This document shows positions 5,324 through 31,340 of a stretch of DNA of 64,000 nt, one piece after another. Source of the DNA: Clavelina lepadiformis (Eukaryota > Chordata > Ascidiacea > Aplousobranchia > Clavelinidae). The notes beneath the pieces are model-generated. The model saw only the letters and a program-made list of their open reading frames with translations, was not told the origin of the DNA and ran no database searches. The DNA lies in NCBI RefSeq assembly GCF_947623445.1, contig NC_135240.1, positions 25,668,001 to 25,732,000 on the forward strand, written 5' to 3'. The first letter of the stretch is position 1. The number at the start of each line of letters is the position of its first letter. Position numbers and translations under genes: made by a program.

Positions 5324-8300
5324 CTAAAGCGTGGTTTCTTTTGATGATTTTTGCTGATCCATTTCTGAAGAATTCGCTTTGCTATTTTTGATGTTGTCTT
5401 TCTTCGGTTTCTCTACACCCGACTGAACATTCAGTTGCTTCAGGTAACCAGGTCTAAAAATATCCACGATTTCATTCCGAAATTCGCCATCCCTTGCGCT
5501 GTATACAATGACGTTGACTAAGCTGAAACAAAACATAAATGGTTGAACATATTTTGCTGCATGAAAGCAAAGGAAACGTTTTAAAGAATAAATCTTGATA
5601 AGTCTCTATAAATAAATAACCTGTTTGTCATGCTGAGATAAAAGCAAACCAAGAAAGGTGATGCGATGTTGTCGCAAGTTAACTGACCAGCATAGAATAA
5701 GGAACCCACGACAATGATAGGAACTAAACAAGATGGGGAAACTACGACTCAAAACGGGTTTTAGTTGAAAATAGATAGAAATAGATAGGCATATAAAAGA
5801 AAAGCTTAGCTTATTTCATCTGGTTATTATTAGTACAAATCGCACTTAATTTGCTGAATAAACCACGTTGTTAAACGAATTTCATCGATAAACACAGCAA
5901 TAAGTACTTAATGTAATTGTGAATCCAAATTGCATGATTGCTAGAGTCTTCAGCACAGACAACTTTCGTTTCCTCATACGTTTCGATGTCGGTGAAGATT
6001 GATCATTAGCGTTCATTTTCTTTTGCTTATCCGCCTTATATACAAAAGCTGCTGTAAAGAGGCAAGAAGCAGTCTATAAAAAGAAACAGATGTAAAATTT
6101 TGCACAGAATGACCTTCTTTAAATCTTGCTTACTTATAATAGCTAAACATAATCATATTTCCTTTTGCAAGCTATAACATTATCTTCACCATTTTACAAA
6201 CATGATTTGAAAAGTCAAATGATTGCCAAAAACTGTTCTATTCAATTGTTTTATTTTTCTGATCCAAAAAATATTAGAAAATTTTACAGACAGTGATTAA
6301 TACCCTAGGAAAATTACTCACGAGTATGGCAAAAGGAACAACATAAAAAATTGTCATGACAACAGTTGCAGCAGAATAGTCTAAGTTTGAAGAAACTTCG
6401 GTAAGCGCAGGATAGTAAAGGAAGGTTGGTGCGAAGTAGGTGTAAATGAACTGATCAGGAAACCAAGCTGAAATAGAAACAGGTAACATCAGTGTGTTTA
6501 GGAAATTTAAACCGATTTTTGTTCCATATTGAACAAACATAACTTTTCTTAGCTTAATTTCTTACCCGGGACAGTGGCGCTTAACAATGCTAAAGACCAC
6601 ACTACACCCAGACCTAGATAAACTGCTGAATTCAGTTGCCATTTGTAGTGTATCGGCTTTACAATAGCGTAAAGCCTTTCGCCGCCCATATAAACCAAGT
6701 GGTAAAGCGAAGAGGAAAAGGTGAGTATAAGAAACATCGCGCCAACATAAGCTTGTGGAGAACTTTGCAATTTCCACTGCCGGTCGTTCAGTTCAACTGC
6801 AGTCAAGGTCATCGACCAGCTGAAATTAAAGCTCACCACGACCAAAATCTGTATGCCTGAAGCAGCAGTGTGTACAAAATCAAACTTAAATTAAGTGTAA
6901 AAATAAAAAGAGGTATAAAGTTGAAATAAAATGGAAGACATTTGGTAAATCAATTCTCACCTGTCAAGATATCAGCAAATGCAAGAGAAGTTTTGCAGAT
7001 GTCCATTTTAGACGATTTTCCTCGGTTGAGGCGTTTGCATCCAACCCAAATAACCAAAGCATTGCAAACAAAAATTGCCAAACCAAAGAGTAGAACAAAA
7101 AAGAGAAATGGACCTGCTTTTTCCATACCGCACGCTTGACATTCTAACAGGGGTTTGTCGAAGCACTCATAACGGATGTCCGGAGTGGATCCAACGCAAA
7201 ACCCCGGATATCCGCAGATGCTTGTGATATTTGTGATATTTCGGTCATTTTGAGGATCTCTTGTGTTGTTGATGTCAATTGCATCCAATGCTCTACGCGG
7301 TCCCAAAAAGGTGTACGTAACGGGAATGAAGATATTAGGAAGTGCTATAAAATAAAATCATCTTAAAACATTATGTTCCCTCTGTAGACTTTATCGCAAA
7401 AAATAACGGAATTACTTTTCTCGCAAAAAGCGGGAGCGCTGCCCGGAAGCCACCCATATCCTGTACAAGTTATAGTTGGACTTCCGGCAAGAGAAAAAGA
7501 TTCTTCGCAAGCAAACACTATTGTGCTCTCCAAGGAATAGAATCCATTTTTATTCAGAGTTGGTTCACTCAAAATAAGCACATTTTTCCCAGGAGATGGA
7601 GGTTTACTTCTGCAAACTAAAAATACGATTAAAATAATTAACATTTTGGACAAATTTTATAGTTATTATGCAACAAATAAACAAATAAGAATAAAGTCCA
7701 TAATCTTAATTAACTATACATGATCTACTGTACAGTTCATAAGCTACAGTATTTAGGATTGAAATGGTTTTTAATGCAAACAATATCTAAACCTGATCGA
7801 CAGACTGGGAATTCGTTGACTGATTCCATCTCCAGGCTCCATTTGTTACCAGCTTGGCAAATACTCACAGAACCATATGGAGCAACCATCTCCAAGTCAC
7901 CATGGCAGTGATAAGTTATCGAAGCACCTTCGTTGAATGGATATTTACCGGAGTAGTTACCATTTTGTAAAGGCAGTGGGTTTCCACAACCTGCATTTTT
8001 ATTGTGTTGTCAGTTTTAGTCGCAAACTTGCCCCAATGTCTATGTATAGCTTAGAACACATAGACTTATGATGACAGTTGTCTCTTGATTGTTTGATTTG
8101 ATACTGGTTATTTAACACAATACTTTATTTTGGTCTATCACATAAAGAAATTTAGGGAAATCTAAAACATCTGTTATGTTAATTAACCTTTAAACCACCA
8201 ACGCTCCCAACGTTTCAGAAAACAAGTGATCACTTCTACCTGATTGAGGAATACCACATATCGGAGGTTTAACTAAGCTCCAAGAACCGTTTCCTAGACA

Positions 8301-11300
8301 GGTAGTTATTGTAGAATCGTTCGTTGAATGACCTGGTTTGCAAACATACTCATAGCTTGATCCTTCTGTGTTCGATAGAGCTTTGATATTTGTGTTAGCT
8401 ACAGGCGGTGGTGGATAACAAACTAAACAAATGCAAAAATATTTAATGACAGTCTATTGAAGTAACTCGGTTTAATTTATGCCGTTTTTGTTTTAGGGCA
8501 TAAAACCAATGTCAATGATGGTTTGGACTACAATGCATGAATTGAATAAAGTTAATGATAAAAAATACTTCTGCTATTCGTTTCTCTATCACATAACCTG
8601 CGCAAAATACTGTACCTTTTACGCAAGATGGTAGTTCCGGTATCCACACACCGTTATCGCAACTCAGTGTTGGGCTTCCAATAAGACTGAACCCGTTTTT
8701 GCACTTGTAAGTTATAACTGATCTAAAATCAAAGCCATAGGGATTTATTGATGATTGAGCTACAATTTCCAAGCCATGACTTGATCCTGGTGGTAATTGA
8801 GCGCATCCTTAACAAAAATAGCTTGTGCATTATGCAGAAACAAAACTTATAAACTGCAATAAGGTAAAAACCAATTTTTACCGCTGTTGCAAGTGGGAAA
8901 TTCAATCGACCCTTGCCTCAGGCTCCACCTATTTCCTGCCACACAACGGCTGGTACTGCCACTAGGATTATCGATTGTAAACCCATAATCGCAGACATAT
9001 GTCACAGTGTCGCTTTCATTGTAGTAGGCCTGCTGCTCGTAAAATCTACCGTTTTTTAATGGCGGTGGATTGCCACAACCTGACAATGTTGTGGGAAATG
9101 TAGAAGTTAGCAAATGATAACATTTTCAGTTTCAACCCTTCTTCGAGCTGACATTCGCATTCAAATCAGATTCTTAAGATGTTCAAACCTACATTGGACC
9201 TTTCATTTACCTGGGGGTGGAGGTAGTTTACATGCTGAAAGAGACTCATCATCTTTTGGAAACAAAGGAACCCATTTTCCATCGCTATCACATATTATTG
9301 TCTTAGTACGAAAATTAGAAAAGCCTGGTTCGCAGGCGTAGTCAACTGTCCATGTTTGCAGCGTAGATAGAGCGTTAGTAACCGCATTTTCTTCCAATGG
9401 CGTTGGGCCGCAGTCTGCAAACACAAAATAAATTTCTATTTATAGCTTACTTTATGAAAAAGAATTTGGAAAGTAGTCCAATCTAAAAGTATAGCATTAC
9501 TTTATATGTGATAATTAAGCTTCACTTGGCAAAGTTACAAGTCGGGCATTGCGGATCGCGTTTGGGTTCGGACTTAAGGTTGACAAAACATTCGGGCCAT
9601 TTACACGCTCGAATTGATACTCATACTCTGCCATATTTAAGTTGTATCTCACTTTCTTTACACCAATTTGCTTGTGCGTAGACTGCATGTTATCCCCCGG
9701 AGAGCAAAGCATAACTTACCAATTGTTGACAATCAAAGACTTGTATAAAAAGATGACTCTGATTTATTCCATAAATTTAACTTTTGGGTCTAACTCGGGC
9801 TTCAAACAAATGTTCGGGTTCGGGCATGGTTCGGGTTAACAACATGAGGTCCGTTCACAACTCTGTACCTTGGTAACATAGCGGAGGAGTTCCTATTTCT
9901 CCGTTAATCGTCCAATTCCAATTCCCTTCAATACATGTAAGTGTTGCATTCCTCACTAAAATATATTCCGGTTTACAGGTAAATCTAACTTCGACCCCAT
10001 GTGACAAAGACATTTCTTCCTTGTAGCTTTGTACTTTGTCGAGAAGAAACAACCCGCCCGAAGGCTCTGTCGGCAGGGCACCGCAAACTGCATAAAAACA
10101 ACGTAAAAGTTTACGAAAAATGATTTTACATCATTTATGCAAACGTTATGTATTAAATCTTGACAGATATTGCTTAAAAGCCTAGCTACGCATTCTTTTT
10201 ACCAGGTTGACACTTGGGAAATATTTTGGATCCAGATTCCGTAATCCAGGAACTACGACAAATCACATTAGGGCCATCGGGATCAATTAGTTCATATCCG
10301 TCATAGCATGTATAGGTCAAAATATCGCCCTCATTGTTTGAAGGAATATTGAGTAGATATCCGTTTTGAATCGTAGGCGGATTTCCGCATCCTAGGTGAT
10401 GAAGAATGTTAGAATATTTTTCGACAGATTTTGTATCGCTCAGTTTATTTTTCATCATTATTTGCGGAGAGGAGAAAAACGCCGATCATAATGTTCACTG
10501 TGCGTAATTTGCTGTTTGTCGTGAGTAGTCATTACATTATTTATACATATTTTACATCTTTTGCAAATGAACAAAACTTCAACCAAAAACAGTTTTAATT
10601 GAAAATCAAATTTAACGGAAAACGCTGCTGAAGGAAAACGTTTAAGAACAACTTTTTACCTTGTTCTGGAAAACGACATAATGGAAGTTTTTTGAGGTCC
10701 CAATAAAGTTTGTTTCCTTTTCTTCTGCAAGTAGATGTGGTCATGTCACTTGTGGACAATCCTTCATTACAAATGTAGTGAGCAACTGATCCTTCAATTG
10801 TTGAAAATACTCTTACTGTTGCATTTGTTGCTTCTGGAGGATTTCCACAGTCTGAGTAAAATAAAAATATTTTTTTCTCAATAAAAGTTATTAAAGGTTA
10901 ATTTTCTAAACGAATGTTTGTGTCAAATGTTTGGTTTCAGAGTAATGTATAACGAACGAACCTACCGACGGAAAAAAATATACTATATAACTTAATGCTG
11001 TGATGAGTAATGCAACTGATTTCAATGTTTGTTGTAGTTATCTAACAATTTCCTAAAACTCTAAAAAATAATGATTTACCGGGTTCACATCTGGGAAAAT
11101 CTGATGCACTCTTTTCTAAACTCCATTTGTTTCCAATAAGACAAATACTCTTTTTTCCCAATGGAGCCAATAGTTGGAATCCATCAACACAAGAGTAGGT
11201 TATTGTTTGGTCAACTTCATTCACATGATTTATTTGGCGTTCACTTTCATATGCTCCATTTATTAATAGCGGAGGGTTTCCACATCCTTTTAAAATAAAT

Positions 11301-12425
11301 GCCTGGTTAACTTTATTACGGATATACTTGAGCAAAGCTTCCAAACTATCGCAAACATTATACCTTCAGCTGGCTTCACACAAGTTGGGAAGATCAATAG
11401 GCTTGATTCTGAAAGATCATCAGGTGGAAATGGTAATCCGTCATCAATGCTTCTCCATTCCCCAAGAAAGCACACGATGGAAGTAAAGTTTAAAGTATAT
11501 AAACCAGGATTGCAGATGTACCGAGCTAATGAATATTCGACTGTTGAATTGGTAAAAATTGTTGTGTTTCCAACCGACGGAGGGTTGTTGCAATCTGCAA
11601 TGCACAATGTCAATAAAGCCTGTAAAAAGTCTCGTTAATTCGGAAAGATTAAAATTAATGTAGCCGAGGTTAAAATTATTGTTATGTGAAGATAAATGTA
11701 GACAGCAGTTTATTTATAAGCTTTTATCGGACACGTAATTGTTTATTTTCGTGTTAAACAGTTAAAGGCCCTATGATTGGGTAAAAATATTTCTAAGTGT
11801 TTTGGTTAATTTGCAGCTTCACGTATCTTGCTCAATCAAATATTAACAAACACGTAACCATAGTCTTTGCTAATACCATTTTGATGATCACGTTCCAACG
11901 GAATGCACAGTTGTGTGATCTGTTCGATATAGTTTAGTTACAATAGTCGCAGTTTTTCAAAAAAAGAAACTAAAAGATTAACAAAACGAAAACTGTAGAA
12001 TCCCGCAGCATTGTCAAAATTTTACCATAACAATTGTTGAAAGTTGTTTTGCGTAAAGTTAAATATTAATACAACGTTAACAAAAACGTATAAAATTTTA
12101 CAAATGCAAAAAGTTAGCCAACAAAAGTAGACAACACAACCCATTGATTAAGACTGGCAGGTGTAGGTTGAAAAAACGTCATTCACAAACGTTATAAAAA
12201 TGGTTTAGATTAATTTCGACTTGAGTTAAGTCAACATCGAAATAGTAAAAACATGGTCTACCATTCGTCAATGAAACTGCGAGAAGCTTCCTGTATTATA
12301 AAAGCTTAGTTTAGGCTTCAAACCAATTTGTTTTTGGTCGAATATTATTTTAAAATTTTACCTTGAGACTTGGCAACAGAAGTCCACAGCAATAAGAAGA
12401 AATGAATATTCCACAGACAAGACAT
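5324..12425 (-). CDS. CCP(x11)-rhodopsin-type GPCR chimera, copy A (18 exons, 1188 aa)
   Basis: Exons 5' to 3': 12362-12425, 11364-11594, 11080-11286, 10660-10851, 10203-10391, 9869-10087, 9211-9414, 8882-9079, 8616-8807, 8240-8422, 7793-7990, 7416-7616, 6961-7344, 6566-6856, 6322-6467, 5908-6073, 5621-5723, 5324-5522. They sum to 3567 nt with consistent phases. Residues 1-21 are a signal peptide (MSCLWNIHFFLLLW...). Residues 22-759 are eleven CCP/sushi domains, each with four Cys and a Trp-type core, one per exon. Residues 760-835 form a hinge with three N-glycosylation sequons and five Cys. From about 836 come seven helices: TM1 with CNALV, TM2 LAFAD, TM3 GERLYAIVKP at the DRY place, TM4 Trp, TM5 and TM6 Pro, and TM7 NVIVY at the NPxxY place. 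The tail ends KETTL. CCP domains are known ligand- and complement-binding modules. I infer a surface receptor with a large ectodomain; the ligand is unknown. Confidence 0.93.
6566..7344 (-). other. Copy A: hinge and TM1-TM4 exons of the GPCR core
   Basis: Exon 6961-7344 carries the hinge, TM1 and the start of TM2. Exon 6566-6856 carries the rest of TM2, ECL1, TM3, ICL2 and TM4. Rhodopsin-family marks seen are the TM1 Asn (CNALV), LAFAD in TM2, an ERL in place of DRY followed by YAIVKPIHY, and the TM4 Trp. The usual Cys at the top of TM3 and its partner in ECL2 are not seen. The next intron (6468-6565, 98 nt) has a GTAAG donor and a pyrimidine-rich TTTCAG acceptor. A 23-nt alternative intron would also keep the frame open but is implausibly short. 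Confidence 0.85.
9515..9842. repeat. GTTCGGG-rich intronic insertion in copy A
   Basis: The intron between the CCP5 and CCP6 exons holds about 330 bp beginning near GTCGGGCATTGCGG...GGGTTCGG and ending ...GTTCGGGTTCGGGCATGGTTCGGG, unlike the AT-rich surroundings. The same block, more diverged, is in copy B at about 23,865-24,178. The two motif clusters are in the same orientation. It is probably an old mobile element; class unknown. Confidence 0.4.
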
Positions 12426-12480
12426 AAAAATATTGTTTCCAAAATCCCAAAAACTAAAATCGATATTTCTGTAAGTTATA
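12426..12480 (-). promoter_or_regulatory. Possible trans-splice acceptor / 5' UTR of copy A
   Basis: Just upstream of the copy A ATG the minus strand reads TATAACTTACAG, then a 5' leader of about 45 nt. Copy B keeps this site (26751-26800) and adds TTTTCAG 12 nt before its ATG. Many tunicate genes receive a spliced leader at such unpaired acceptors. No TATA box or other promoter element could be supported. Confidence 0.25.
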
Positions 12481-12719
12481 TAAATATGAAAAATTTGAGA
12501 AGTAATGAAAAACGTCTACAAGGACGTTGAAGTTAAACTATAGGCTACAGTGTACGCTTCATGAAAACAAAATCGTTTTTCTTAACATCAGCGTAGCTGT
12601 GTGAATTATACCTGAGACGCATCTTTAATTGCTTGCCTATAGTACTATATGCGGTGTATTAAGTGACTTGCTAACTGAAACTACTGGCATCTCTTTTCAT
12701 TTTGGTGTTTACACTAAAA

Positions 12720-13727
12720 CATACATGTCAAACTCCCGGCCCGCGGGCCAAATCCAGCCCGCTTTACTATAAAATTTGGTCCGCGTAGTTATTTCATACA
12801 TTGAACTATTTCCGGCCCACGAGATCAGCATTGTACAGTATAACTTACTTTTTCAAGCAAGAAACAAGATTATAACAAATCGCACAATACACTAGCACAG
12901 TAGTTTCCCCACCATACGATAGAATAAATAGCTTTATTCTATCGCTTGTAACCTGGGCTGCAACAGAAGAATAATTAAAAATAGCCCAGTCAAAACTGCT
13001 CTTATTCAGCAGCGTCAGTTTAATTTTGGCAAGTCTAATAGTACGGCACCTTTCAATATGGCCAAACTTTGTAATGCAATTTCTAATTTTAACTTTCAAA
13101 TGCATAGTTTCCTTTACATTTTTTGATGCAGGCTACCTGTAGTACGGTCGTGTTTGACAGAATCTTATTACTGCATATCTGCGTATGAGCTTACGGTTAT
13201 AGGCCTATAGCTGTATAGCATACCGTAAGCCGTGTACATTCATTTTTTACATGTTTATTTTATCGGTCTACTTTGTGCTCATATTTGCGAGCGGCTTCTT
13301 TAAACACCCAGCAATGCGGCTCAGACTTAATAAAATATTTTTCAATTCATGTTGTTCCAACTGATTGCGCGGCCCAATTTCCGTGAAATACACTGATTTT
13401 CCCAAAGCCTTGTTTTCAATAATAAGCCTACTTCGTGGTAGGTAAGCTTTTATTCTATTTCATGGTTTATCGAGTGCGACGTATTTTTACTTTTTTTCGT
13501 CAATATTTGTTTGAGTTGTATTCGAAGAAGAATAATACACCGAGCTTTAAACATCAAAAACTTGGTGTTGTTTCGCTGCCTGTTCCAATTCATGTACTCG
13601 TGTCGGGAAACGGTCAGTCAAGTCACGTCAAGTTACGAAACATTCAAACAGTTATCATCCTTACGGCCCGCGGCGTTAAATTAGTTTTGAGATTTGGCCT
13701 TTGGTGCGATTGAGTTTGACACCCTTG
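12720..13727. mobile_element. hAT-like non-autonomous element (unit 1 copy)
   Basis: 1,008 bp bounded by imperfect terminal inverted repeats (left ...TGTCAAACTCCCGGCCCGC, right inverted GGGTGTCAAACTCAATCG). It is flanked by a perfect 8-bp target duplication CACTAAAA at 12,712-12,719 and 13,728-13,735. An empty site with one CACTAAAA sits in unit 2 at 27,042-27,049. The 8-bp duplication and the end sequence fit hAT elements. Internal ORFs (86 and 92 codons) resemble no transposase I recognise. Confidence 0.85.
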
Positions 13728-13943
13728 CACTAAAAGGTCGCATATCTATCGTAATTGCAAACGTTTTATCATACAAATGTTATGTTTTAGACTCTGATGT
13801 CGGAGCGGTATTTGGATCCGAAACACTTATACCGTAGAGCACAGATAAAAGGCAGGAAATTTGTTATTCTTCTGTAGGCGTCAAAACGAACATCCTATAA
13901 ACAGGAAATAAAAATCATACCGCGTTTGTGATGGTAAAGAAAC

Positions 13944-15455
13944 GGTTTGGCGACACTTAATCACGCGACACTTAATCACGCGACACATAATCACCGACAC
14001 ATAATCACTAGGACATTTAATCACGCGACTCTTAATCACGCGACACATAATCACTAGGACATTTAATCACGCGACACATAATCACTAGGACATTTAATCA
14101 CGCGACATTTAATCACACATTTACAGTATCGGCTACCGTACACACTAGGTAACAATGTCATGCATGGGAAATGTAAGCAACTGCACGAAGATAAACTAAA
14201 ATCTCGCTTGACAGATAACGGTCAACTGTGTCAACACGATGACTGTCATCGTGTTGGTGATATTTCTGGCTAAATAACAAAGAGTTTCTAGCTGGTGGAA
14301 GTCAACTTTAAACCAATGTTTTCTGAATTTGACGGTTTAATTTAAATTATAATTAGAATTGTCGCGATACCCATCTATGCGTATATGTGTTGTACTTCGC
14401 TTTTGCAAAACTTTGTTTTAAGAAAGGTAATAGGTAAAAAGTTTTTTCTTCACGTCAGAACCGTTTTGATGGTACTTTGATCAAGAGCTTCGGTGACAAT
14501 AGAATAATGTTACATATTACATAGGTTATACGTAGCAATGCAAAATGACATGTTATTTCCTGATTGGCTAATGTGTTTCTATAAAAACTAAGGTTTGGTT
14601 AAAATCTCCTCTTCTTGTCTCTACACATAATATCAGTTTTACCTTCTGGACTGTTCATTACTGAATTGGAGTTATAGTTTTGTTTAAATGTGAAAAGATG
14701 ATGAAAATGTTTCTAATGTGATACAACTTATTTCGGACAATATAACAATTAGACTTTATGAAGCTGGTGTTGATTTAAAGAAACATTATAGAGAAAGCCG
14801 GCGAAAAAGAGTCAAAGACAATTGTCGGGGAGTTCTAAAAGAAAGACTAATAGCCTTTGGCTTTAGGCCAACCTTAAAAGCAATCCACATCGCCATCCCT
14901 ACAGAGAGATGCACACGAGCTTGAATTACTGAATTTTCCTCACGCTTTTCCAATATTCGTTCTCTACAAAATAAATTCAGGCTATTCAGTACTCCTTTTG
15001 ATGTGGACGCCAATACCATTCCCGAAAAATTTCAAATGGACCTTATTCAAGTGTGAATACATATATTTTGCTCTTTTTGTGATTGGTATGATTGAGATTG
15101 CAGCAATGTAGCGTAATATACTGAAATGAGTGTGAATTATAGTATTAATGAAAGTTCCGGCCCGCCAAAGAGTTGTACACTCGACATTTGGCCTGTGACT
15201 AGCAAAAGGTTGCCGACCCCTGCTATAGACAAAGGCTCTGTCCAAGTGCTGTCGCATCCAAGTGATTATGTGTCGCGTGATTAAATGTCGCGTGATTAAG
15301 CATCCAAATCGCGTGATTAAATGTCCTAGTGATTATGTGTCGCGTGATTAAATGTCCTAGTGATTATGTGTCGCGTGATTAAGTGTCCTAGTGATTATGT
15401 GTCGGTGATAAAGTGTCGCGTGATTAAGTGTCGCGTGATTAAGTGTCGGTACACC
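13944..15455. mobile_element. Foldback-like transposon with terminal arrays of a 14-17 bp motif
   Basis: 1,512 bp found only in unit 1, flanked by a perfect 8-bp duplication AAAGAAAC (13,936-13,943 and 15,456-15,463). The ends are inverted (GGTNTNNCGACACTTAATCACGCGACAC). Each end continues as an array of GACAC(A/T)TAATCAC units joined by GC or TAGG: about 165 bp on the left (13,951-14,117) and about 190 bp on the right (15,262-15,447) in reverse orientation. The interior holds no recognised transposase; ORFs of 68-91 codons are present. The 8-bp duplication suggests hAT-type mobilisation, and the arrays suggest a foldback-like structure. Confidence 0.85.
15150..15222 (-). mobile_element. Solo hAT terminal fragment nested in the array-ended element
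   Basis: On the minus strand this reads CAGGGGTCGGCAACCTTTTG and then GCGGGCCGGAAC, the familiar end of Charlie-type hAT elements. No matching second end was found inside the host element, so it is probably a captured or truncated piece. Confidence 0.5.
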
Positions 15456-15845
15456 AAAGAAACGTGCTTTAGACACTGCCTTTATTTGCTTCTTCTAGGT
15501 CTCAATGCCTTGGGTTGCTAATGTATCTTGCAAAAAGCCTCATTCTTTAATTCCCGACACTTAACAATAACACTGAACAACTGGAGTAATTTCAACATGT
15601 ACAGAATTTAGTTTCAGGAAACTTACAACATCTTAAAAACTCATTATCTTGATAATAAATTATTCATAAATGGTTTCCATGAAAAAAGCTCATTCTTAGG
15701 TAAGGCTTTACTAACCTTGCTTAACATACACAGTTCTAAAACGCGAAATACGATGCCAACACACAGATCAAAACAACTCACAACCTTTACAAGGCTTTAG
15801 AATGAATCGGTTGAATGGATCAATAAATGTCTTTACTAACCTAAC

Positions 15846-16400
15846 AATTTTCGCTCAACTGACAAAATTGAAAGAGTTCTCACTCAGATTACTTCTTATA
15901 CGTGTATGCTGCCTGTTAAAATTATAACATAACAAACATATAACGATTGACTTGGCTACGCGGATATGTGTTGGGTCACGATGTGCCATTTTTATGGAGA
16001 CAAAAATATATGCATCATTTAGACAAAAGCCTAGTGACGTATGTATACCGCACACGTCTAGTTGTTTGACTACATTCTTTGTGTTGTTTTGTGTGTTAAG
16101 AAATCTTGCTCCATTACCACTTTTGACTTGCATTTTTCTAAAATCGGTTGTCGGTTTTGTTAAAAAATAATGCAGAAAGCTTTTGATTTGTTAACTTTAA
16201 CTATTTTTTCTTTCACATTGAAAATCGTCAGGAAAAACACACAATGACTCACAAAAACATTGACTGTCAAACCTTCGAAGCTTCATGCCAATTGCCAACT
16301 GTTTAGGTGCCAACAAAAATTTCTTGTAGAGCATGTAATGCAGCATATAGAAGTTACAATCATTACAGCATGTACGTTGTAACATAAAACAAATTTACAA
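15846..16400. other. Highly conserved block between units, no confirmed gene
   Basis: Nearly base-identical to 30,436-30,990 (I see about one indel and one substitution), while sequence on its left differs often. It contains overlapping ORFs of 92 codons (minus, 15,855-16,133) and 72 codons (plus, 15,952-16,170), identical in both units. Identity alone cannot separate a functional element from recent gene conversion. Confidence 0.5.
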
Positions 16401-16575
16401 GATCAACGTAGTGTGTTACCAGACATTCACATAACCATGTTTGTAGAATCTGAATTTGCCGGGATAGGGCAGCACGATATGTCTTGAGGTAAAAATTAAT
16501 GTATCTGTACCTAATTGATTCACAAACTTTCACATTAGTCTGTTTTTAACAATAATCTGCAACCTGTGGCCTCCT

Positions 16576-16884
16576 GTCTTACAAGACGGGCATTTTCGGA
16601 ATGAGATGGTTGATATTTTCAAACCTGGCTACCTGAAGCAGCTGAGTGTTCAATCTAATGCACAAATACCGAAGAGGCCCCATACCACAAGTAGCAAAGT
16701 GGATTCCATCGAATATTCCAGTAAACTGCAAAAAAGTAACCTGAAGAAGTTTTGGTTTAAACAGAAAAAAAAGCAGGAAAGTATTGTTAATGCAGTAGAA
16801 TTTAATTTCGATACTTTTAGGAGACTACAAATTGGGCAAAAGTGCCGAATCGGGCGAGTTCTACTGTACCGCACCCGCACATAA
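16576..16884 (+). pseudogene. Orphan last exon of a CCP/7TM receptor relative (unit 1)
   Basis: Plus-strand frame reading QDGHFRNEMVDIFKPGYLKQL, closely related to the helix-8 and tail segment of copies A and B (RDGEFRNEIVDIFRPGYLKQL). No TM7 helix, splice acceptor or upstream receptor exon is seen on this strand. The open frame continues about 70 codons past the similarity. It lies opposite in strand to the intact genes, so it is probably a relic of an inverted paralogue. Confidence 0.65.
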
Positions 16885-17505
16885 TTTTTAGTACTATAAT
16901 GTACGCAATAGTTGATACAATCAATTGCCGCCATTGTTACGATTGGCTCGTATTTGACATGACTAATGTTACTGCATCTTTGTTCTTAGGACGCATTGCC
17001 GTGAGCAGTGATATTTGGTTCAATATAAGAACTTCCAATGTATTTTTATTCGTCTGATATACGAAGAGCTAAGTGTAAAAAGAGCTAATATTTCATAGAT
17101 TATACAAACTAAAACGGAAGTGCGACGCAGTTTGCTTTCAAATAGATAAACGAGCAACATGTTGCTTTTGCGTTATCATTACAGAGATCACTTGCTTACA
17201 TGTGTTGGGATCTTAGCTTGAAGAGACAAAAACTGTTGGAGGGTGAATTAACAAAAGCGCTACATTACAATCTTACACTTAAAATATTTTTTATGTCACA
17301 ACGTGGCCTTATTAAATACAGTATATACGATAACGCTAGTGTAGCGTTTTAAGTTTCGACTGTCGCAAGTTTTTCTTGATACTTACTGAACACAACTGGT
17401 CAAGATAAGCTTGTCATACTAGACCTTTTCAATAAACAAAGCTACTGTACAGGCCGCATATGCCAGGATTATGTTTGATCTTGATGTTCTACATAACATA
17501 TAGCC

Positions 17506-17927
17506 CAGGAGTGTCCAACCCGTGGCCCGCGGGAAGGTTCTGAGTGGCCCGGGTGGTATTTTTCGAAATGACTTATATTATCAACTGAATCGCCTACTTA
17601 ATTTATGGCGAACTTACATTCCGAGAAATTGGCTTTTATTGTAGGCTATGCTGTTTTTGTCTATTGCTCTATACTATAGATAGAGCAATAGATAGTAGAG
17701 CAATAGATAATATAGATAATAGAGCAATAGATAGATAATATACTATAGTCTCTAGTGCAGGGGTGCACAACTGTTCAAGTTAATTTTATTGCATCACAAT
17801 TTATTTGTAAGATTAGAATTTTGGTGTGAGTGTTTTAATTAGAAATTAGCAGTAAACACTCAAGTGGCCCGCGCAAACATTCGTACATCGCATGTGGCCC
17901 TTCGGCCAAAAAGGTTAGACACCTCTG
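17506..17927. mobile_element. Short hAT-like element unique to unit 2
   Basis: 422 bp. The left end CAGGAGTGTCCAACCCGTGG and the inverted right end CAGAGGTGTCTAACC match as terminal inverted repeats. The flanks ATATAGCC (17,498-17,505) and ATATACCC (17,928-17,935) are an 8-bp target duplication with one change. Unit 1 has the uninterrupted CATATAGCCTATTGTG at about 3,770. A second CAGGGGTG-type start at 17,758 inside it may be a nested end. Confidence 0.85.
17661..17748. repeat. ATAGAGCAATAGATA-type simple repeat
   Basis: Irregular tandem repeats of AGAGCAATAGAT and ATAGATAATA inside the short hAT-like element; probably expanded after insertion. Confidence 0.7.
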
Positions 17928-18543
17928 ATATACCCTATTGTGTTAAATGTTTGAAATTAATCATTTGAAGAGACCTAGTATACTCGAAAAATTCAAACTT
18001 TAGCAATTTTTAAAATTAATTCTTGTATTTTCAAAAGTTTGGCGTTTGCTTCAGTCCATCCATATTACTAATGTGTGTTACTGAATATGATATGTCTCTA
18101 TTTGATTGTCCAAACTATATAAAAAGTTTGAGGGCAACATAACCTTTGCCAGGCATCCAGGAAAATTAAGCCAGTGGTGAAAAGGTTTTTTGATATTGAG
18201 GTTCCGAACTAAAAAGATTGAAATAAATAGAGTTTGTCATAACCTATTAAAAAACAATTTGGGAAGGTGACACCCGGGTTTCTGGAATCCTTTCTCCACA
18301 ATATATTGCTTTCTTCATATCATCTGGTGATTTCACGCAAACAAGCCGTAATCTTTTTACCGAGCCCAAACATCTTTTTAGTTCGACAACGTTTTCGACC
18401 AAACAATCATCAACAGTTACAGTTGACCACTCAAGATATGGCTACACAAGCACTCTTTCCAGATCTAAAGTTGCAATTAATAACAATTGTCTAGTATAAT
18501 TATTATTTGTCACAACTTTCGTCTTTTTCTTAGTTAGTTTCTC

Positions 18544-18729
18544 AACTTCATCGTGTACAGCGCGAGAGATCAAGATTTTCGGAATGAGATCGTCGATATT
18601 TTCAGACCGGGTTGCTTGAAGCAGCTGAGTTTTCCATCTAATGCCCAAACACCGAAGAAGAGTAGAAACTCAAGTAAAAAAGTGGATTCTAGCGAGAACA
18701 TTATTGAAGCTGGTAACACACAACAATGA
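18544..18729 (+). pseudogene. Third orphan terminal exon of the receptor family
   Basis: 62-codon frame beginning NFIVYSARDQDFRNEIVDIF, matching the end of TM7, helix 8 and tail of copies A and B (NVIVYSARDGEFRNEIVDIF), and ending at TGA. A TTTTTCTTAG acceptor-like site lies just upstream, but the bases between it and the match hold an in-frame TAG. It is absent from the equivalent place in unit 1 (about 4,460-4,500). It is closer to the functional exons than the other two relics. Confidence 0.65.
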
Positions 18730-19663
18730 AAGCAAACGTCGCTTTAGCAAAGAGTACAAAGTTGGTTTTTCAGTTTTTAAACCAATCTTAACATACACAG
18801 GCAGTTGTCAACGGCCTGGAACAAGTTACTTTTATCTTGATTCCAGCTGAAAACCTTCTTCAGTGAAAGATGTTGTAATTTACTTATCTAGACTAAATGC
18901 TTCTAAAATTTCAGTCATTTTTAAAAGACTTTTACAAGTAAATGTACGAAAATACGCGCTAGCTTAACTATAGAGTGTATCAATTTTCTAAAAATATTTT
19001 GAAACAGCTTAAAATGAATATATGTTGTACTTAAAGAGCATTTTGTAAAGAACTGCTCAAATTTGCCACGGGCCTGCAGTTGGTTAATTCGGCCTTGATA
19101 TTATAGCATATACTACATAGCTGTCCAAGTTTTCTCACGTATTTTCATCGTCAATCTGTTTCTTTTATTTTTAACTATAATGACGTTATTCTGCTTGATT
19201 CTAAAATTCCGTTTTGTGAACCCTCTTCCACTGCAATAAAATACAAAGTTTGTTGTTTAAACCTAAATGGTTTTTGATATGGGCAAAAATTATTATAAAC
19301 TATATAAGTTATGATCTTGTGCGAGTGGATGTTATTAAATTCCCCCACGACGATCAGCTGTTTTGATATTCTCATATAACCAAATATTACTTCCCACATT
19401 ATTTTCTTGCCGTACATTCACTTTAAATTTAATTGCTTGATTCTGCCGATGTCTCATTCATCCAACGAAAAACTATGTCTCTCTACATAGTAAGCCCAAA
19501 CACAAGTGTTTTTTGACCCATTGACTTCACCTTTTGAAAACTAAACTAATGGAAACTTTCCAGCGAACTCTTAATACAATTACATTCGTTTACCCTTTGT
19601 CAGCACGTTAAAACACAAAAATATGTGATGCTGCTATACAGTTATATATTTTTTATATTTTGT

Positions 19664-22600
19664 CTAAAGCGTGGTTTCTTTTGATGTTTTTGGCTGATCC
19701 GTCTCTGAAGAATTTGCTTTGTTACTTGTGATGTGGTCTTTTTTCGGTTTCTCTACACCTGACTGAACATTCAGTTGCTTCAGGTAACCAGGTCTAAAAA
19801 TATCCACAATTTCATTCCGAAATTCGCCATCCCTCGCGCTGTATACAATGACGTTGACTAAGCTGAAACAAAACATAAATGGTTGAACATATTTTGCTGT
19901 AAGAAAGCAGTTTTAAAGATAAATTCTTGATAATTCTTTATAAATAAAGAACCTGTTTGTCATGCTGAGATAAAAGCAAACCAAGAAAGGTGGTGCAATG
20001 TTGTCGCAAGTTAACTGACCAGCATAGAATAAGGAACCCACGACAACGATAGGAACTAAACAAGATGGGGAAATAACGACTCAAAACGGGTTTTAGTTGA
20101 AAATAGATAGAAATAGATAGGCATATAAAAGAAAAGCTTAGCTTATTTCATCTGATTATTATTAGCACAAATCGCACATAATTTGCTCAATAAATCACGT
20201 TGTTATACGAATTTCATCGATAAACACAGCTATAAGTACTTAATGTAATTGTGAATCCAAATTGCATGATTGCTAAAGTCTTTAGCACAGACAACTTTCG
20301 TTTCCTCATACGTTTCGATGTCGGTGAAGATTGATCATTAGCGTTTATTTTCTTTTGCTTATCCGCCTTGTATACAAAAGCTGCTGTAAAGAGGCAAGAA
20401 GCAGTCTATAAAAAGAAACAGATGTAAAATTTTGCACAGAATGACCTTCTTTAAATCTTGCTTACTTATAATAGCTAAACATAATCATATTTCCTTTTGC
20501 AAGCTATAACATTATCTTCACCATTTTACAAACATGATTTGAAAAGTCAAATGATTGCCAAAAACTGTTCTATTCAATTGTTTTATTTTTCTGATCCAAA
20601 AAATATTAGAAAATTTTACAGACAGTGATTAATACCCTAGGAAAATTACTCACGAGTATGGCAAAAGGAACAACATAAAAAATTGTCATGACAACAGTTG
20701 CAGCAGAATAGTCTAAGTTTGAAGAAACTTCGGTAAGCGCAGGATAGTAAAGGAAGGTTGGTGCGAAGTAGGTGTAAATGAACTGATCAGGAAACCAAGC
20801 TGAAATAGAAACAGGTAACATCAGTGTGTTTAGGAAATTTAAACCGATTTTTGTTCCATATTGAACAAACATAACTTTTCTTAGCTTAATTTCTTACCCG
20901 GGACAGTGGCGCTTAACAATGCTAAAGACCACACTACACCCAGACCTAGATAAACTGCTGAATTCAGTTGCCATTTGTAGTGTATCGGCTTTACAATAGC
21001 GTAAAGCCTTTCGCCGCCCATATAAACCAAGTGGTAAAGCGAAGAGGAAAAGGTGAGTATAAGAAACATCGCGCCAACATAAGCTTGTGGAGAACTTTGC
21101 AATTTCCACTGCCGGTCGTTCAGTTCAACTGCAGTCAAGGTCATCGACCAGCTGAAATTAAAGCTCACCACGACCAAAATCTGTATGCCTGAAGCAGAAG
21201 TGTGTACAAAATCAAACTTAAATTAAGTGTAAAAATAAAAAGAGGTATAAAGTTGAAATAAAATGGAAGACATTTGGTAACTCTATTCTCACCTGTCAAG
21301 ATATCAGCAAATGCAAGAGAAGTTTTGCAGATGTCCATTTTAGACGATTTTCCTCGGTTGAGGCGTTTGCATCCAACCCAAATAACCAAAGCATTGCAAA
21401 CAAAAATTGCCAAACCAAAGAGTAGAACAAAAAAGAGAAATGGACCTGCTTTTTCCATACCGCACGCTTGACATTCTAACAGGGGTTTGTCGAAGCACTC
21501 ATAACGGATGTCCGGAGTGGATCCAACGCAAAACCCCGGATATCCGCAGATGCTTGTGATATTTGTGATATTTCGGTCATTTTGAGGATCTCTTGTGTTG
21601 TTGATGTCAATTGCATCCAATGCTCTACGCGGTCCCAAAAAGGTGTACGTAACGGGAATGAAGATATTAGGAAGTGCTATAAAATAAAATCATGTGAAAA
21701 CATTATGTTCCCTCTGTAGACTTTATTGCAAAAAATAACGAAATTACTTTTGAAACAAACAGCGGAGGTTCTGTCCGGAAGCCACCCATATCCTGTACAA
21801 GTTATAGTTGGACTTCCGGCAAGAGAAAAAGATTCTTCGCAAGCAAACACTATTGTGCTCTCCAAGGAATAGAATCCATTTTTATTCAGAGTTGGTTCAC
21901 TCAAAATAAGCACATTTTTCCCAGGAGATGGAGGTTTACTTCTGCAAACTAAAAATACGATTAAAATAATTAACATTTTGGACAAATTTTATAGTTATTA
22001 TGCAACAAATAACAAAATAGGAATAAAGTCCATAATCTTAATTAACTATACATGATCTACTGTACAGTTCATAAGCTACAGTACTTAGGATTGAAATGGT
22101 TTTTAATGCAAACAATATCTAAACCTGATCGACAGACTGGGAATTCGTTGACTGATTCCATCTCCAGGCTCCATTTGTTACCAGCTTGGCAAATACTCAC
22201 AGAACCATATGGAGCAACCATCTCCAAGTCACCATGGCAGTGATAAGTTATCGAAGCACCTTCGTTGAATGGATATTTACCGGAGTAGTTACCATTTTGT
22301 AAAGGCAGTGGGTTTCCACAACCTGCATTTTTATTGTGTTGTCAGTTTTAGTCGCAAACTTGCCCCAATGTCTATGTATAGCTTAGAACACATAGACTTA
22401 TGATGACAGTTGTCTCTTGATTGTTTGAATTGATACTGGTTATTTAACACAATACTTTATTTTGGTCTATCACATAAAGAAATTTAGGGAAATCTAAAAC
22501 ATCTGTTATGTTAATTAACCTTTAAACCACCAACGCTCCCAACGTTTCAGAAAACAAGTGATCACTTCTACCTGATTGAGGAATACCACATATCGGAGGT

Positions 22601-25600
22601 TTAACTAAGCTCCAAGAACCGTTTCCTAGACAGGTAGTTATTGTAGAATCGTTCGTTGAATGACCTGGTTTGCAAACATACTCATAGCTTGATCCTTCTG
22701 TGTTCGATAGAGCTTTGATATTTGTGTTAGCTACAGGCGGTGGTGGATAACAAACTAAACAAATGCAAAAATATTTAATGACAGTCTATTGAAGTAACTC
22801 GGTTTAATTTATGCCGTTTTTGTTTTAGGGCATTAAACCAATGTCAATGATGGTTTGGACTACAATGCATGAATTGAATAAAGTTAATGATAAAAAATAC
22901 TTCTGCTATTCGTTTCTCTATCACATAACCTGCGCAAAATACTGTACCTTTTACGCAAGATGGTAGTTCCGGTGTCCACACACCGTTATCGCAACTCAGT
23001 GTTGGGCTTCCAATAAGACTGAACCCGTTTTTGCACTTGTAAGTTATAACTGATCTAAAATCAAAGCCATAGGGATTTATTGATGATTGAGCTACAATTT
23101 CCAAGCCATGTCTTGATCCTGGTGGTAATTGAGCGCATCCTTAACAAAAATAGCTTGTGCATTATGCAGAAACAAAAATTATAAAATGCAATAAGGTAAA
23201 AACCAATTTTTACCGCTGTTGCAAGTGGGAAATTCAATCGACCCTTGCCTCAGGCTCCACATATTTCCTGCCACACAACGGCTGGTACTGCCACTAGGAT
23301 TATCGATTGTAAATCCATAATCGCAGACGTATGTCACAGTGTCGCTTTCATTGTAGTAGGCCTGCTGCTCGTAAAATCGACCGTTTTTTAATGGCGGTGG
23401 ATTGCCACAACCTGACAATGTTGTGGGAAATGTAGAAGTTAGCAAATGATAACATTTTCAGTTTCAACCCTTCTTTGAGTTGACATTCGCATTCAAATCA
23501 GATTCTTAAGATGTTCAAACCTACATTGGACCTTTCATTTACCTGGGGGAGGAGGTAGTTTACATGCTGAAAGAGACTCATCATCTTTTGGAAACAAAGG
23601 AACCCATTTTCCATCGCTATCACATACTATTGTCTTAGTACGAAAATTAGAAAAGCCTGGTTCGCAGGCGTAGTCAACTGTCCACGTTTGCAGCGTAGAT
23701 AGAGCGTTAGTAACCGCATTTTCTTCCAATGGCGTTGGGCCGCAGTCTGCAAACACAAAACAACTTTCTATTTATAGCTTACTTGATGAAAAACAATTTG
23801 GAAAGTAGTCCCATCTAGAAGTATAACATTACTTAATATGTGATAATTAAGCCTCACTTGACAAAGTTACAAGTCGGGCTTTGCGGATCGCGTTTAGGTT
23901 CGAATTTAAGATTGACAAAACATTCGGTCAGATACGCGCCCGAATTTATACTCATACTCTGCCATATTTAAGTTGTAATCTCATTTTCTTTGCACGAATT
24001 TGCATCTGCGTGGACTGCATGCTATAAACCTCCCCCAGAGAGCAAAGCGTAGCTTACCAATTGATGAAAATCAAAGAATTATATAAAAAAATGACTCTGA
24101 TTTATTCAATAAATTTAACTTTTTGGCCAAACTCGGGCTTCAAACAAATGTTCGGGTTCGGGCATGATTCGGGTTAACAACATGAGCTCCTTTTACAACT
24201 CTGTACCTTGGTAACATAGCGGAGGTTTTCCTATTTCTCCGTTAATCGTCCAATTCCAATTCCCCTCAATACATGTAAGTGTTGCATTCCTCACTAAAAT
24301 ATATTCCGGTTTACAGCTAAATCTAACTTCGACCCCATGTGAGAAAGACATCCCTTCCTTGTAGCCTTGTACTTTGTCCAGAAGAAACGACCCGCCCGAA
24401 GGCTCTGTCGGCAGGGCACCGCAAACTGCATAAAGACAACTTAAAACAACGTAAAAGTTTACGAAAAATGATTTTACATCATTTATGCAAACGTTATGTA
24501 TTAATTCTTGACAGATATTGCTTAAAAGCTACAAGTTATTTTTACCAGGCCGACACTTGGGAAATATTTTGGATCCAGATTCCGTAATCCACGAACTACG
24601 ACAAATCACATTAGGGCCATCGGGATCAATTAGTCCATACCCGTCATAGCATGTATACGTCAGAATATCGCCCTCATTGCTTGAAGGAATATTGAGAAGG
24701 TATCCGTTTTGAATCGTAGGCGGATTTCCGCATCCTATGTGATGAAGAATGTAAGAATATTTTTCGACAGATTTTGTATCGCTCAGTATATTTTTCATCA
24801 TTACTTGCGGAGAGGAGAATAACGCTGATGATAATGTGTGCGTAATTTGCTGTTTGTCGTGAGTAGTCATTACATTATTTATACATATTTTACATTTTTT
24901 GCAAATGAACAAAATTTCAACCAAAAACAGTTTTAATTGAAAATCAAATTTGACGGAAAACGCTGCTGAAGAAAAACGTTTAAGAACAACATTTTACCTT
25001 GTTCTGGAAAACGACATAATGGAAGTTTGTTGAGGTCCCAATAAACTTTGTTTCCTTTTCTTCTGCAAGTAGATGTGGTCATATCACTTGTGGACAATCC
25101 TTGATTACAAATGTAGTGAGCAACCGATCCTTCAGTTGTTGAAGATACTCTTATTGTTGCATTTGCTGCTTGTGGAGGATTTCCACAATCTGAGTAAATT
25201 TAAAATATTTTTTCTCATAAAAAATATAACTAAACGGTAAATTTTCTAAACTAAAGTTTGTGTCAATGTTCGGTTTCTGGGTAAATGTTTAACGACAAAC
25301 CTACCGACAGAAAAAAAATATACCATGTAATGCTGTGATGAGTAATGCAACTGATTTCAATGTTTGTTGTAGTTATCTAACAATTTCTTAAAACTCTAAA
25401 AAATAATGATTTACCAGGTTCACATCTGGGAAATGCACTCGTTTCTAAGCTCCATTTGTTTCCAATAAGGCAAATACTCTTTTCTCCCACTGGAGCCCAT
25501 AGCTGGAATCCATCAACACAGGAGTAGGTTATCGTTTGGTCAACTTCATGCACATGATTTATTTGGCGTTCACTTTCATATGCTCCATTTATTAATAGCG

Positions 25601-26750
25601 GAGGGTTTCCACATCCTTTTAAAATAAATTCCTGTTTAACTTTGTTACGGATATACTTGAGCAAAGCTTACAACCTATCACAAACATTATACCTTCAGCT
25701 GGCTTCACGCAAGTTGGAGGGATCAATAGGCTTGATTCTGAAAGATCATCAGGTGGAAATGGTAATCCGTCATCAAAGCTTCTCCATTTCCCAAGGAAGC
25801 ACACGATGGAAGTAAAGTTTAAAGTATATAATCCAGGATTGCAGATGTACCGAGCTAATGAATATTCGACTGTTGAACTGGTAAAAATTGTTGTGTTTCC
25901 AACCGACGGAGGGTTGTTGCAATCTGCAATGAACAATGTCAATAAAGCCTGTTAAAAGTCTCGTTAATTCGGAAAGAATAAAAATAATGTAACCGAGGTT
26001 AATATTATTGTTATATGAAGATAAATGTAGACAGCAGTTTATTTATAGACTTTTATCGGACACGTAATTGTTTATTGTCGTGCTAAAGGCCCTATGATTG
26101 GTTAAAAATGTCTCTAAGTGTTTTGGTTAATTTGCAGCTTCATGTATCTTGTATAAATCAAATTATAACAAACACGTAACTATTGTCTTTGCTAATTGCA
26201 TTTTGACGATCACGTTCCAACGGAATGCACAGTTGTGTGATCTGTTTGATATAGTTTAGTTACAATAGTCGCAGTTTTTCAAAAAAAGAAACTAAAAGAT
26301 TAACAAAAGGAAAACTGTAGTTTTACCCGGCATTGTCTAAATTTTACCACAAAAATTGTTGAAAGTTGTTTTACGTAAAGTAAAATATTAATACAACGTT
26401 AAAAAAACGTGAAACATTTTACAAATGCAAAAAGTTTGCAAATAAAAGTAGACCACACAACCCATCGATTAAGACTGAAAGTTATAGGTTGAAAAAAAGT
26501 CATTCACAAACGTTATAAAAATGGTTTAGATTAAGTTTGACTTGAGTTAAGTCAACATCTAAATAGTAAAACAAGGTAAGCTATATCATTTCTCAATGAA
26601 ACTGCGAGAAGCTTCCTGTGTTATAAAAGTTTAGTTTAGGCTTCAAACCAATTTGTCTTTGGTCGAATATTATTTTAAAATTTTACCTTGAGACTTGGCA
26701 ACAGAAGTCCACAGCAATAAGAACAAATGAATTTTCCACAGACAAGGCAT
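19664..26750 (-). CDS. CCP(x11)-rhodopsin-type GPCR chimera, copy B (18 exons, 1186 aa)
   Basis: Exons 5' to 3': 26687-26750, 25693-25923, 25415-25615, 24998-25189, 24546-24734, 24207-24425, 23543-23746, 23214-23411, 22948-23139, 22572-22754, 22125-22322, 21748-21948, 21293-21676, 20898-21188, 20654-20799, 20240-20405, 19953-20055, 19664-19862; total 3561 nt. Every exon has the same length and phase as in copy A except CCP2, which lacks two codons (SD before FPRC). The reading frame is intact. The signal peptide is MPCLWKIHLFLLLW. Substitutions cluster in CCP1-CCP4 (several in CCP2 and CCP3), in the end of CCP11 and in the cytoplasmic tail. The hinge and TM1-TM5 exons look identical in protein. 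The tail again ends KETTL. It probably has the same role as copy A with altered ligand specificity; this is inference. Confidence 0.93.
20898..21676 (-). other. Copy B: hinge and TM1-TM4 exons of the GPCR core
   Basis: Exons 21293-21676 and 20898-21188 encode the same protein as the copy A exons at 6961-7344 and 6566-6856. The introns here are also nearly identical to those of A; the few differences include one base in the acceptor-side intron and three near the TM1-exon donor. This contrasts with the visible divergence of the outer CCP exons. Confidence 0.85.
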
Positions 26751-31166: not shown

Positions 31167-31340
31167 GTCTTACAAGACGGGCATTTTCGGAATGAGATGG
31201 TTGATATTTTCAAACCTGGCTACTTGAAGCAGCTGAGTGTTCAATCTAATGCACAAATACCGAAGAGGCCCCATACCACAAGTAGCAAAGTGGATTCCAT
31301 CGAATATTCCAGTAAACTGCAAACAAGGCAAAAAAAGTAA
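31167..31340 (+). pseudogene. Orphan last exon of a CCP/7TM receptor relative (unit 2)
   Basis: Duplicate of the relic at 16,576 (same QDGHFRNEMVDIF segment). It has a short insertion that brings a stop codon at 31,340, and a 19-20 bp A-run just after it. No other exons are near on this strand. Confidence 0.65.

Follow-up and report, generated by a model that had tools for sequence, protein, structure and literature searches.

Predicted class A receptors with long CCP ectodomains form a tandem gene family in the ascidian Clavelina lepadiformis

Class A G-protein-coupled receptors (GPCRs) with large modular ectodomains are few, and mostly these ectodomains consist of leucine-rich repeats; the LGR, RXFP and glycoprotein-hormone receptors are of this kind, having class A cores with a large ectodomain and a stalk or hinge. 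The known GPCR with sushi domains is the GABA-B receptor 1a, a class C receptor, and to our knowledge complement control protein (CCP, or sushi) modules on a class A core form no described receptor class. Here, we analysed a stretch of 64 kb from C. lepadiformis (the window; C1:25,668,001-25,732,000, C1 being contig NC_135240.1, with other contigs named likewise) together with its genome (209 Mb, 95 contigs) and describe tandem genes in which exons encoding a stack of CCPs are followed by exons encoding a rhodopsin-type core of seven transmembrane helices (7TM; single helices TM1 to TM7). Our data make it likely that these genes belong to a class A receptor family that has expanded in this lineage and whose modular CCP rod would capture ligands.

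Gene models and receptor class

All three copies in the window are encoded on the minus strand, which the preliminary description of this DNA does not state. Copies 1 and 2 gave complete models (12,425-5,324 and 26,750-19,664) of 18 exons each, encoding 1,188 and 1,186 amino acids, in which every intron is GT-AG and no internal stop occurs; before correction of the TM6-TM7 acceptor the two proteins were 95.7% identical. The outer coordinates of that description coincide exactly with our models, which have the start codons at 12,425 and 26,750 and the final stop-codon bases at 5,324 and 19,664, and the single frame it had drawn from a signal peptide through eleven CCPs to TM7 and tail is indeed open across the 18 exons of both copies. 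Each gene consists of an exon for the signal peptide, eleven for the CCPs, one for the stalk, a Cys-rich module and TM1, four further TM exons and one for TM7 and the tail. In copy 1, exon 1 with the start codon and signal peptide (MSCLWNIHFFLLLWTSVAKSQ) covers 12,362-12,425 (donor score 7.0, phase 1) and is followed by exons 2-12 (7,416-11,594), one per CCP, bounded by GT-AG introns and in phase 1 at both ends without exception, at 11,594-11,364, 11,286-11,080, 10,851-10,660, 10,391-10,203, 10,087-9,869, 9,414-9,211, 9,079-8,882, 8,807-8,616, 8,422-8,240, 7,990-7,793 and 7,616-7,416. Exon 13 (6,961-7,344; acceptor 7.1, donor 11.4, phase 1) encodes the stalk (FIPVTYTFLGPRR), the Cys-rich juxtamembrane module, TM1 and the start of TM2, and exons 14-18 (5,324-6,856), at 6,856-6,566, 6,467-6,322, 6,073-5,908, 5,723-5,621 and 5,522-5,324, encode the remainder of TM2 to TM7 and a tail ending in ETTL. 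Copy 2 is modelled in the same way, with exon 1 (start codon and signal peptide, MPCLWKIHLFLLLWTSVAKSQ) at 26,687-26,750, eleven CCP exons (21,748-25,923) at 25,923-25,693, 25,615-25,415, 25,189-24,998, 24,734-24,546, 24,425-24,207, 23,746-23,543, 23,411-23,214, 23,139-22,948, 22,754-22,572, 22,322-22,125 and 21,948-21,748, and the stalk, juxtamembrane module, 7TM core and tail (19,664-21,676) at 21,676-21,293, 21,188-20,898, 20,799-20,654, 20,405-20,240, 20,055-19,953 and 19,862-19,664. Copy 3 has its first CCP exons within 1-676 (676-449, 340-134 and one starting at 22) and runs on beyond the window, with its 7TM part and tail at about C1:25,662,078.

For the TM6-TM7 intron an acceptor at 5,741 was rejected, having no AG in copy 2 and giving a poor TM6; the acceptor common to both copies (5,723 and 20,055) leaves the frames intact and yields the TM6 sequence FTITLIP, comparable to F-x-x-C-W-x-P. 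Signal-peptide-like short exons also lie 5' of the first CCP in five other genes of the tandem array described below, and for three none was found; these exons were chosen by eye from mostly chance matches, the best E-value per gene ranging from 1e-4 to 9.9.

In copy 1, a Pfam run on the 1,194-residue version preceding the 18-base acceptor correction identified eleven stretches of PF00084 (Sushi; whole-protein E-value 7.9e-58, 193.1 bits at a curated cut-off of 20.7) and PF00001 (7tm_1) at residues 854-1136 (1e-16, 61.7 bits at a cut-off of 30.5), in line with the eleven CCPs and class-A-like core proposed in the preliminary description. Up to an E-value of 10 the listing contains these two families and, below its cut-off, HRM. 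Sushi and 7tm_1 were also found in two paralogues on C6, 7tm_1 scoring 67.3 and 33.2 bits. We aligned six of the 36 known paralogues, assigning Ballesteros numbers ourselves, and found N1.50, D2.50, E3.49-R3.50, W4.50, P5.50, P6.50, N7.49 and Y7.53 invariant in all six. The third residue of the E/D-R-Y motif is L, V or I, and CWxP and NPxxY are replaced by the variants F-T-x-T-L-x-P and N-V/F-x-x-Y, in which P6.50, N7.49 and Y7.53 are retained; accepted class A members likewise vary at these two motifs. By Pfam and by motif residues we assign the predicted receptors to class A. Compared with solved structures, the 7TM profile gives weak matches spread over beta-adrenergic, S1P2, 5-HT1A, galanin and other receptors and rhodopsin, no subfamily standing out, and no LGR or RXFP is among the best 60 of 102 matches.

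Five Cys residues before TM1 and one in extracellular loop (ECL) 3 are invariant in the six aligned rows, and we infer that they form a disulfide-bonded cap. A juxtamembrane motif resembling C-x-x-P-G-x-C ... C ... C-x-x-C-G precedes TM1, whole or in part, in the rows of the family as judged by eye, being worn in several of them. A furin-like site at GPRR in the stalk was considered and not adopted because the arginine pair is lost in copy 3 and in the C6 gene at 19,087,991. At the other end of the protein, the C-terminus fits a class I PDZ ligand in 8 of the 13 CCP-bearing genes with a modelled tail.

Joining of the modules and extent of the family

Whether the CCP and 7TM exons belong to one gene was assessed from splice phase, reading frame and genomic location. 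Among 166 CCP hits in 18 loci, with acceptors sought up to 9 bases from the expected place, phase 1 yielded an acceptor scoring above 3 for 157 hits, phase 0 for one and phase 2 for ten, while donors scoring above 4 occurred in phase 1 for 144 hits and in each of the other two phases for ten; at looser limits phase-1 sites were counted at 161 and 164 of the 166. At the join between the last CCP and TM1, where phase-1 sites alone were sought, 17 of 18 loci had a donor as well as an acceptor, with scores between -0.2 and 7.8 for the TM1 acceptors that were chosen (copies 1 and 2: donor 4.5, acceptor 7.1), and the joined models are open to the end in 12 of 18. The sole Met before TM1 in the TM1-exon frame of copies 1 and 2 adjoins the helix; several other array genes have an in-frame Met within the stalk. 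A query of 388 residues, comprising six CCPs of the 14-CCP gene C1:25,605,763, has 122 genome matches at E-values up to 1e-5, of which 121 lie on the same strand as, and no more than 9 kb upstream of, a TM1 exon of the family, on three contigs; the remaining one is at C1:25,098,840. None of the best 150 of 1,412 Sushi candidates in the genome lies, by eye, at a CCP-7TM locus, meaning that CCP genes are plentiful elsewhere. Phase bias, co-location and the CCP types described below together strongly disfavour two neighbouring genes and support the single chimeric gene of the preliminary description as the predicted arrangement.

The family extends well beyond the window. For the 7TM part we counted at least 122 exon-level matches genome-wide, a lower bound as 98 of 255 first-look candidates were scored. 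We examined 36 genes, a part of the family that leaves out places on C2 at 1,643,812, 1,993,092, 1,997,146, 2,008,636, 2,016,962, 2,025,063, 2,029,117 and 2,035,301. In 18 of the 36, on C1 (11), C6 (3) and C8 (4), CCP exons lie upstream on the same strand; in the other 18, on C2 (15), C3, C6 and C8 (one each), no CCP was seen within about 2-5 kb upstream. Ten of the C1 genes, including the three window copies, are arrayed head to tail at 25.54-25.69 Mb, and between 9 and 14 CCPs were detected in each, the nine-CCP member, which has a large gap between CCPs, perhaps being incomplete. The "three copies in a row" noticed earlier thus include a real third copy, of which the window holds the first CCP exons, but undercount the array; the expanding family proposed at the same time is supported, and our analysis adds the ten tandem copies, further members on two other contigs, the variable CCP number and relatives of the 7TM with no upstream CCP seen.

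Clustering of the CCPs from 13 of the 18 models (those with nine or more CCPs), cut at three groups, revealed three alternating types, alpha (a), beta (b) and gamma (g). Four 14-CCP genes read abg-ab-abg-abg-abg, copies 1 and 2 ab-abg-abg-abg, the long C6 gene b-abg-abg-abg and two C8 genes ab-abg-ab-ab; departures from whole units, as modelled, are C1:25,657,031 (abg-ab-abg-g-abg) and copy 3 (b-abg-ab-abg). Each CCP of copy 1 pairs with its own counterpart among positions 4-14 of the 14-CCP reference, meaning that those genes differ by one three-CCP unit. Of 2000 free shuffles, the collinearity with this reference was equalled by none for the C6 gene and by 3 and none for the two C8 genes. 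The contigs have the order of types in common. A match of individual CCPs to one another is supported on C6 and only weakly on C8, given the within-type control described below, and the periodicity fits one ancestral stack without proving it.

A tree of the region from the juxtamembrane module to TM4 (36 rows, 182 columns), which has long branches and was rooted at the midpoint only, requires two changes of the CCP label. Grouping the 18 CCP genes alone as a single clade was rejected (approximately unbiased test, p 0.006); in the best tree they share one side of a branch with the CCP-less genes on C3, C6:19,082,672 and C2:1,810,886, at a very low support of 35/3. We prefer one gain followed by one later loss of the CCP stack, two gains being possible on the same tree.

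Both parts of the genes are under purifying selection and are kept as protein, the CCPs more loosely. Over nine paralogue pairs the ratio of non-synonymous to synonymous substitution (omega) is 0.25-0.51 for the CCPs and 0.10-0.28 for the 7TM part, the CCPs being higher in 9/9, where the pairs have genes in common and are not independent and the values are pairwise averages, not site-wise. Diversifying selection was considered and found no footing in these averages, omega being below 1 in all nine pairs. Between copies 1 and 2, pN/pS is 0.0348/0.0993 for CCP1-5, 0.0131/0.0278 for CCP6-11 and 0.0102/0.0348 for the 7TM part. The coding sequence is unchanged between CCP9 and TM5 except in CCP11, i.e. 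identical in CCP9, CCP10, TM1, TM2-4 and TM5, and the introns there are 94-100% alike, this near-identity including introns suggesting gene conversion. The last residues of CCP11 (21,748-21,790 compared with 7,416-7,458) hold a tight cluster of differences amid the near-identity, as though a short tract had been converted from another paralogue.

Several observations weigh against a family of joined, signalling receptors with a common ectodomain. A hydropathy scan called six of the seven helices, TM3 not being called. P7.50, the toggle W6.48 and C3.25 are missing from the aligned paralogues, which might therefore couple in an unusual way or not at all; all six have Ala at position 3.25, meaning that the usual disulfide between TM3 and ECL2 is missing, and S1P, LPA and cannabinoid receptors are also without it. 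The TM6 donor is weak, scoring 0.6 in copies 1 and 2. Five of the 18 joined models hold stops (C1:25,553,853, C1:25,657,031, C8:16,485,386, C8:16,512,722 and C8:16,923,528), one of these stops sitting within the TM2-4 exon of the gene whose TM1 is at C1:25,546,822, and for C1:23,960,976 no TM1 acceptor was found. The C8 stops are located at the CCP-to-TM1 join and may stem from automatic splice choice; modelling of this join is good for C6 and most of C1 but poor for C8. Finally, when CCPs were shuffled within types, the collinearity was equalled in 8 of 2000 shuffles for C6 and in 95 and 121 for C8, by which most of the signal on C8 is type order and correspondence of single CCPs is not shown there.

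Further features of the family and the window were noted. Members of this 7TM family also form another large cluster at C2:1.98-2.13 Mb, where upstream CCPs were not seen. It contains several sets of two to four equally scoring exon matches, some spaced about 16-19 kb apart, representing either recent duplication or assembly copies. The CCP-less relative at C2:15,447,813 has ILPDRIPILEPEA-type repeats in an N-terminal frame open through to TM1. On the plus strand of the window, fragments at 16,582-16,713, 18,538-18,696 and 31,146-31,304 are similar to the last (tail) exon only, no other TM exon matching beside them at an E-value below 1, and are probably relics of dead copies. The spacers adjoining the two complete genes, at 12.6-17.2 kb and 28.7-31.8 kb, are also duplicated (91-98% identity in the listed repeats), with start-to-start distances of 14.6-16.1 kb compared with 14.3 kb for the genes. 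Open frames on the minus strand at 34.7-40.2 kb and 57.4-60.4 kb resemble, by eye, pieces of other seven-helix receptors, and for five pieces from these frames Pfam gave nothing over its cut-off. A 16-mer, which we take to be a Ciona-type spliced leader and which makes a tunicate origin very probable, occurs 1,483 times in the genome, the reversed control pattern occurring 0 times, and is borne by a tandem array with 745-base steps at C6:12.15-12.21 Mb.

Proposed working and alternative readings

We propose a model according to which each gene would encode one cell-surface receptor, with a secreted N-terminus heading a CCP rod (9-14 CCPs detected per array gene) built largely of repeated alpha-beta-gamma units of three CCPs. 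A short stalk and the five-cysteine juxtamembrane module would link the rod to a rhodopsin-class 7TM core that retains most class A signalling motifs. The rod would capture a protein or glycoprotein ligand from another cell, a particle or solution, and capture would shift or free the stalk together with the Cys module relative to the outer face of the 7TM core, by analogy with the ectodomain and hinge of leucine-rich-repeat GPCRs, whereupon the core could signal via G proteins. In most array members the tail, ending in T-x-L or T-x-F, might be held by PDZ scaffolds. The family would have grown by tandem duplication together with gain and loss of CCP units, as a result of which paralogues probably differ in ligand range.

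Beyond this, the paralogues could form a repertoire for self/non-self recognition, i.e. allorecognition or the sensing of gametes or complement opsonins, as opposed to each having one conserved ligand, a reading we regard as possible but doubtful. Roles of this kind, in allorecognition, gamete interaction or innate sensing, had been suggested in the preliminary description. The solved structures closest to the ectodomain are those of complement receptor 1 (CR1; 4.1e-102), factor H (1.5e-47) and then complement receptor 2 (CR2), the number and units of CCPs differ among tandem copies, the CCPs evolve faster than the 7TM part in all nine (overlapping) pairs and the tunicate proteins vCRL1 and fester bear CCPs. 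The match to complement proteins shows common modules and not common ligands, CCP likeness being no demonstration of complement binding, and the omega range of the CCPs indicates constraint on average and lends no support to a fast-evolving recognition function. If the ligands were complement fragments, gamete coats or tunic cells, these proteins would constitute a direct signalling receptor for tunicate self/non-self recognition. An extended version, which we consider unlikely, sees in the at least 18 CCP-GPCR loci a tunicate repertoire wiring complement-style modules to G-protein signalling, in which duplication, together with the gain, loss or exchange of CCP units among tandem paralogues, would generate specificity, self/non-self or opsonin sensing would proceed without single-pass complement receptors and the stalk would possibly be a tethered agonist. 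The stalk of array members carries the motif F-I-P-x-x-Y-x-F-Y-G-P, which may act in this way.

The proposed receptor might be accompanied by a second product, a soluble or differently anchored CCP protein made from the same gene by intron retention past the last CCP. Soluble forms of complement receptors exist, and read-through beyond the last CCP donor stays open for 2 to 36 residues before a stop (17 genes); the read-through peptides are unlike between groups, giving no sign of selection on them, and the longest (C8:16,499,037) has, by eye, a hydrophobic stretch. We judge the production of both forms distinctly unlikely. It is likewise improbable that part of the array arose in assembly, with alleles from a highly polymorphic animal placed end to end as copies. 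The near-identity of copies 1 and 2 between CCP9 and TM5, a synonymous divergence (dS) of 0.07-0.11 between C1:25,605,763 and 25,621,201 and the identically scoring sets on C2 would fit such an effect; against it, some neighbouring genes diverged long ago as paralogues (dS exceeding 1 for copies 1 and 3 in the CCP and the 7TM part alike), CCP number varies among copies and elsewhere the introns of copies 1 and 2 show up to 10% difference, so that conversion tracts offer an alternative, and the architecture is in any case independent of copy number. Two neighbouring genes, the first for a secreted or membrane-bound CCP protein and the second for a class A receptor of its own, would accord with joins that are predicted and were sought in phase 1 only, with the low end of the TM1 acceptor scores, stops in three of four C8 joins, the stalk Met residues and the 18 of 36 relatives for which no upstream CCP was seen, but this highly improbable arrangement was rejected on the phase bias, the 12 open joins, the co-location at 121 of 122 matches despite CCP genes being plentiful elsewhere and the constraint on both parts as protein, copies 1 and 2 adding well-scoring join sites and a TM1 frame without usable Met.

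Comparison with known receptor systems

The predicted receptors share features with several described systems and differ from each of them. Like CR1 and factor H they have long CCP stacks, here with repeating three-CCP units and in CR1 with seven-CCP repeats; unlike CR1, which has one membrane helix, and factor H, which is soluble, they have seven helices after the stack, and the 7tm_1 core in place of a single helix sets them apart from CR1/CR2-type receptors. The tunicate proteins vCRL1 and fester are likewise surface proteins with CCPs and are tied to allorecognition; they are not known to be seven-helix proteins. GABA-B receptor 1a also carries sushi modules, two in number, at the N-terminus of a GPCR, but on a class C core with a Venus-flytrap domain, whereas the Pfam search gave PF00001 here and listed no class C family. 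With adhesion GPCRs the proteins have in common a long modular extracellular region atop seven helices, yet GAIN/GPS and 7tm_2 are not in the Pfam listing up to an E-value of 10, in which weak matches may be filtered.

The LGR, RXFP and glycoprotein-hormone receptors resemble the predicted proteins in overall plan, a large modular ectodomain preceding the class A core and a stalk or hinge linking the two. Their ectodomains consist of leucine-rich repeats, here replaced by CCPs; because no leucine-rich-repeat family appears in the Pfam listing up to an E-value of 10, the family is not placed among the LGRs, and their layout nonetheless provides the closest working analogy. As the genome also holds related cores for which no upstream CCP was seen, and one gain followed by a loss is compatible with the tree, the change should be datable and testable. 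A CCP-bearing class A family would represent a second route, next to the leucine-rich repeats, by which such a core has gained a protein-capturing ectodomain.

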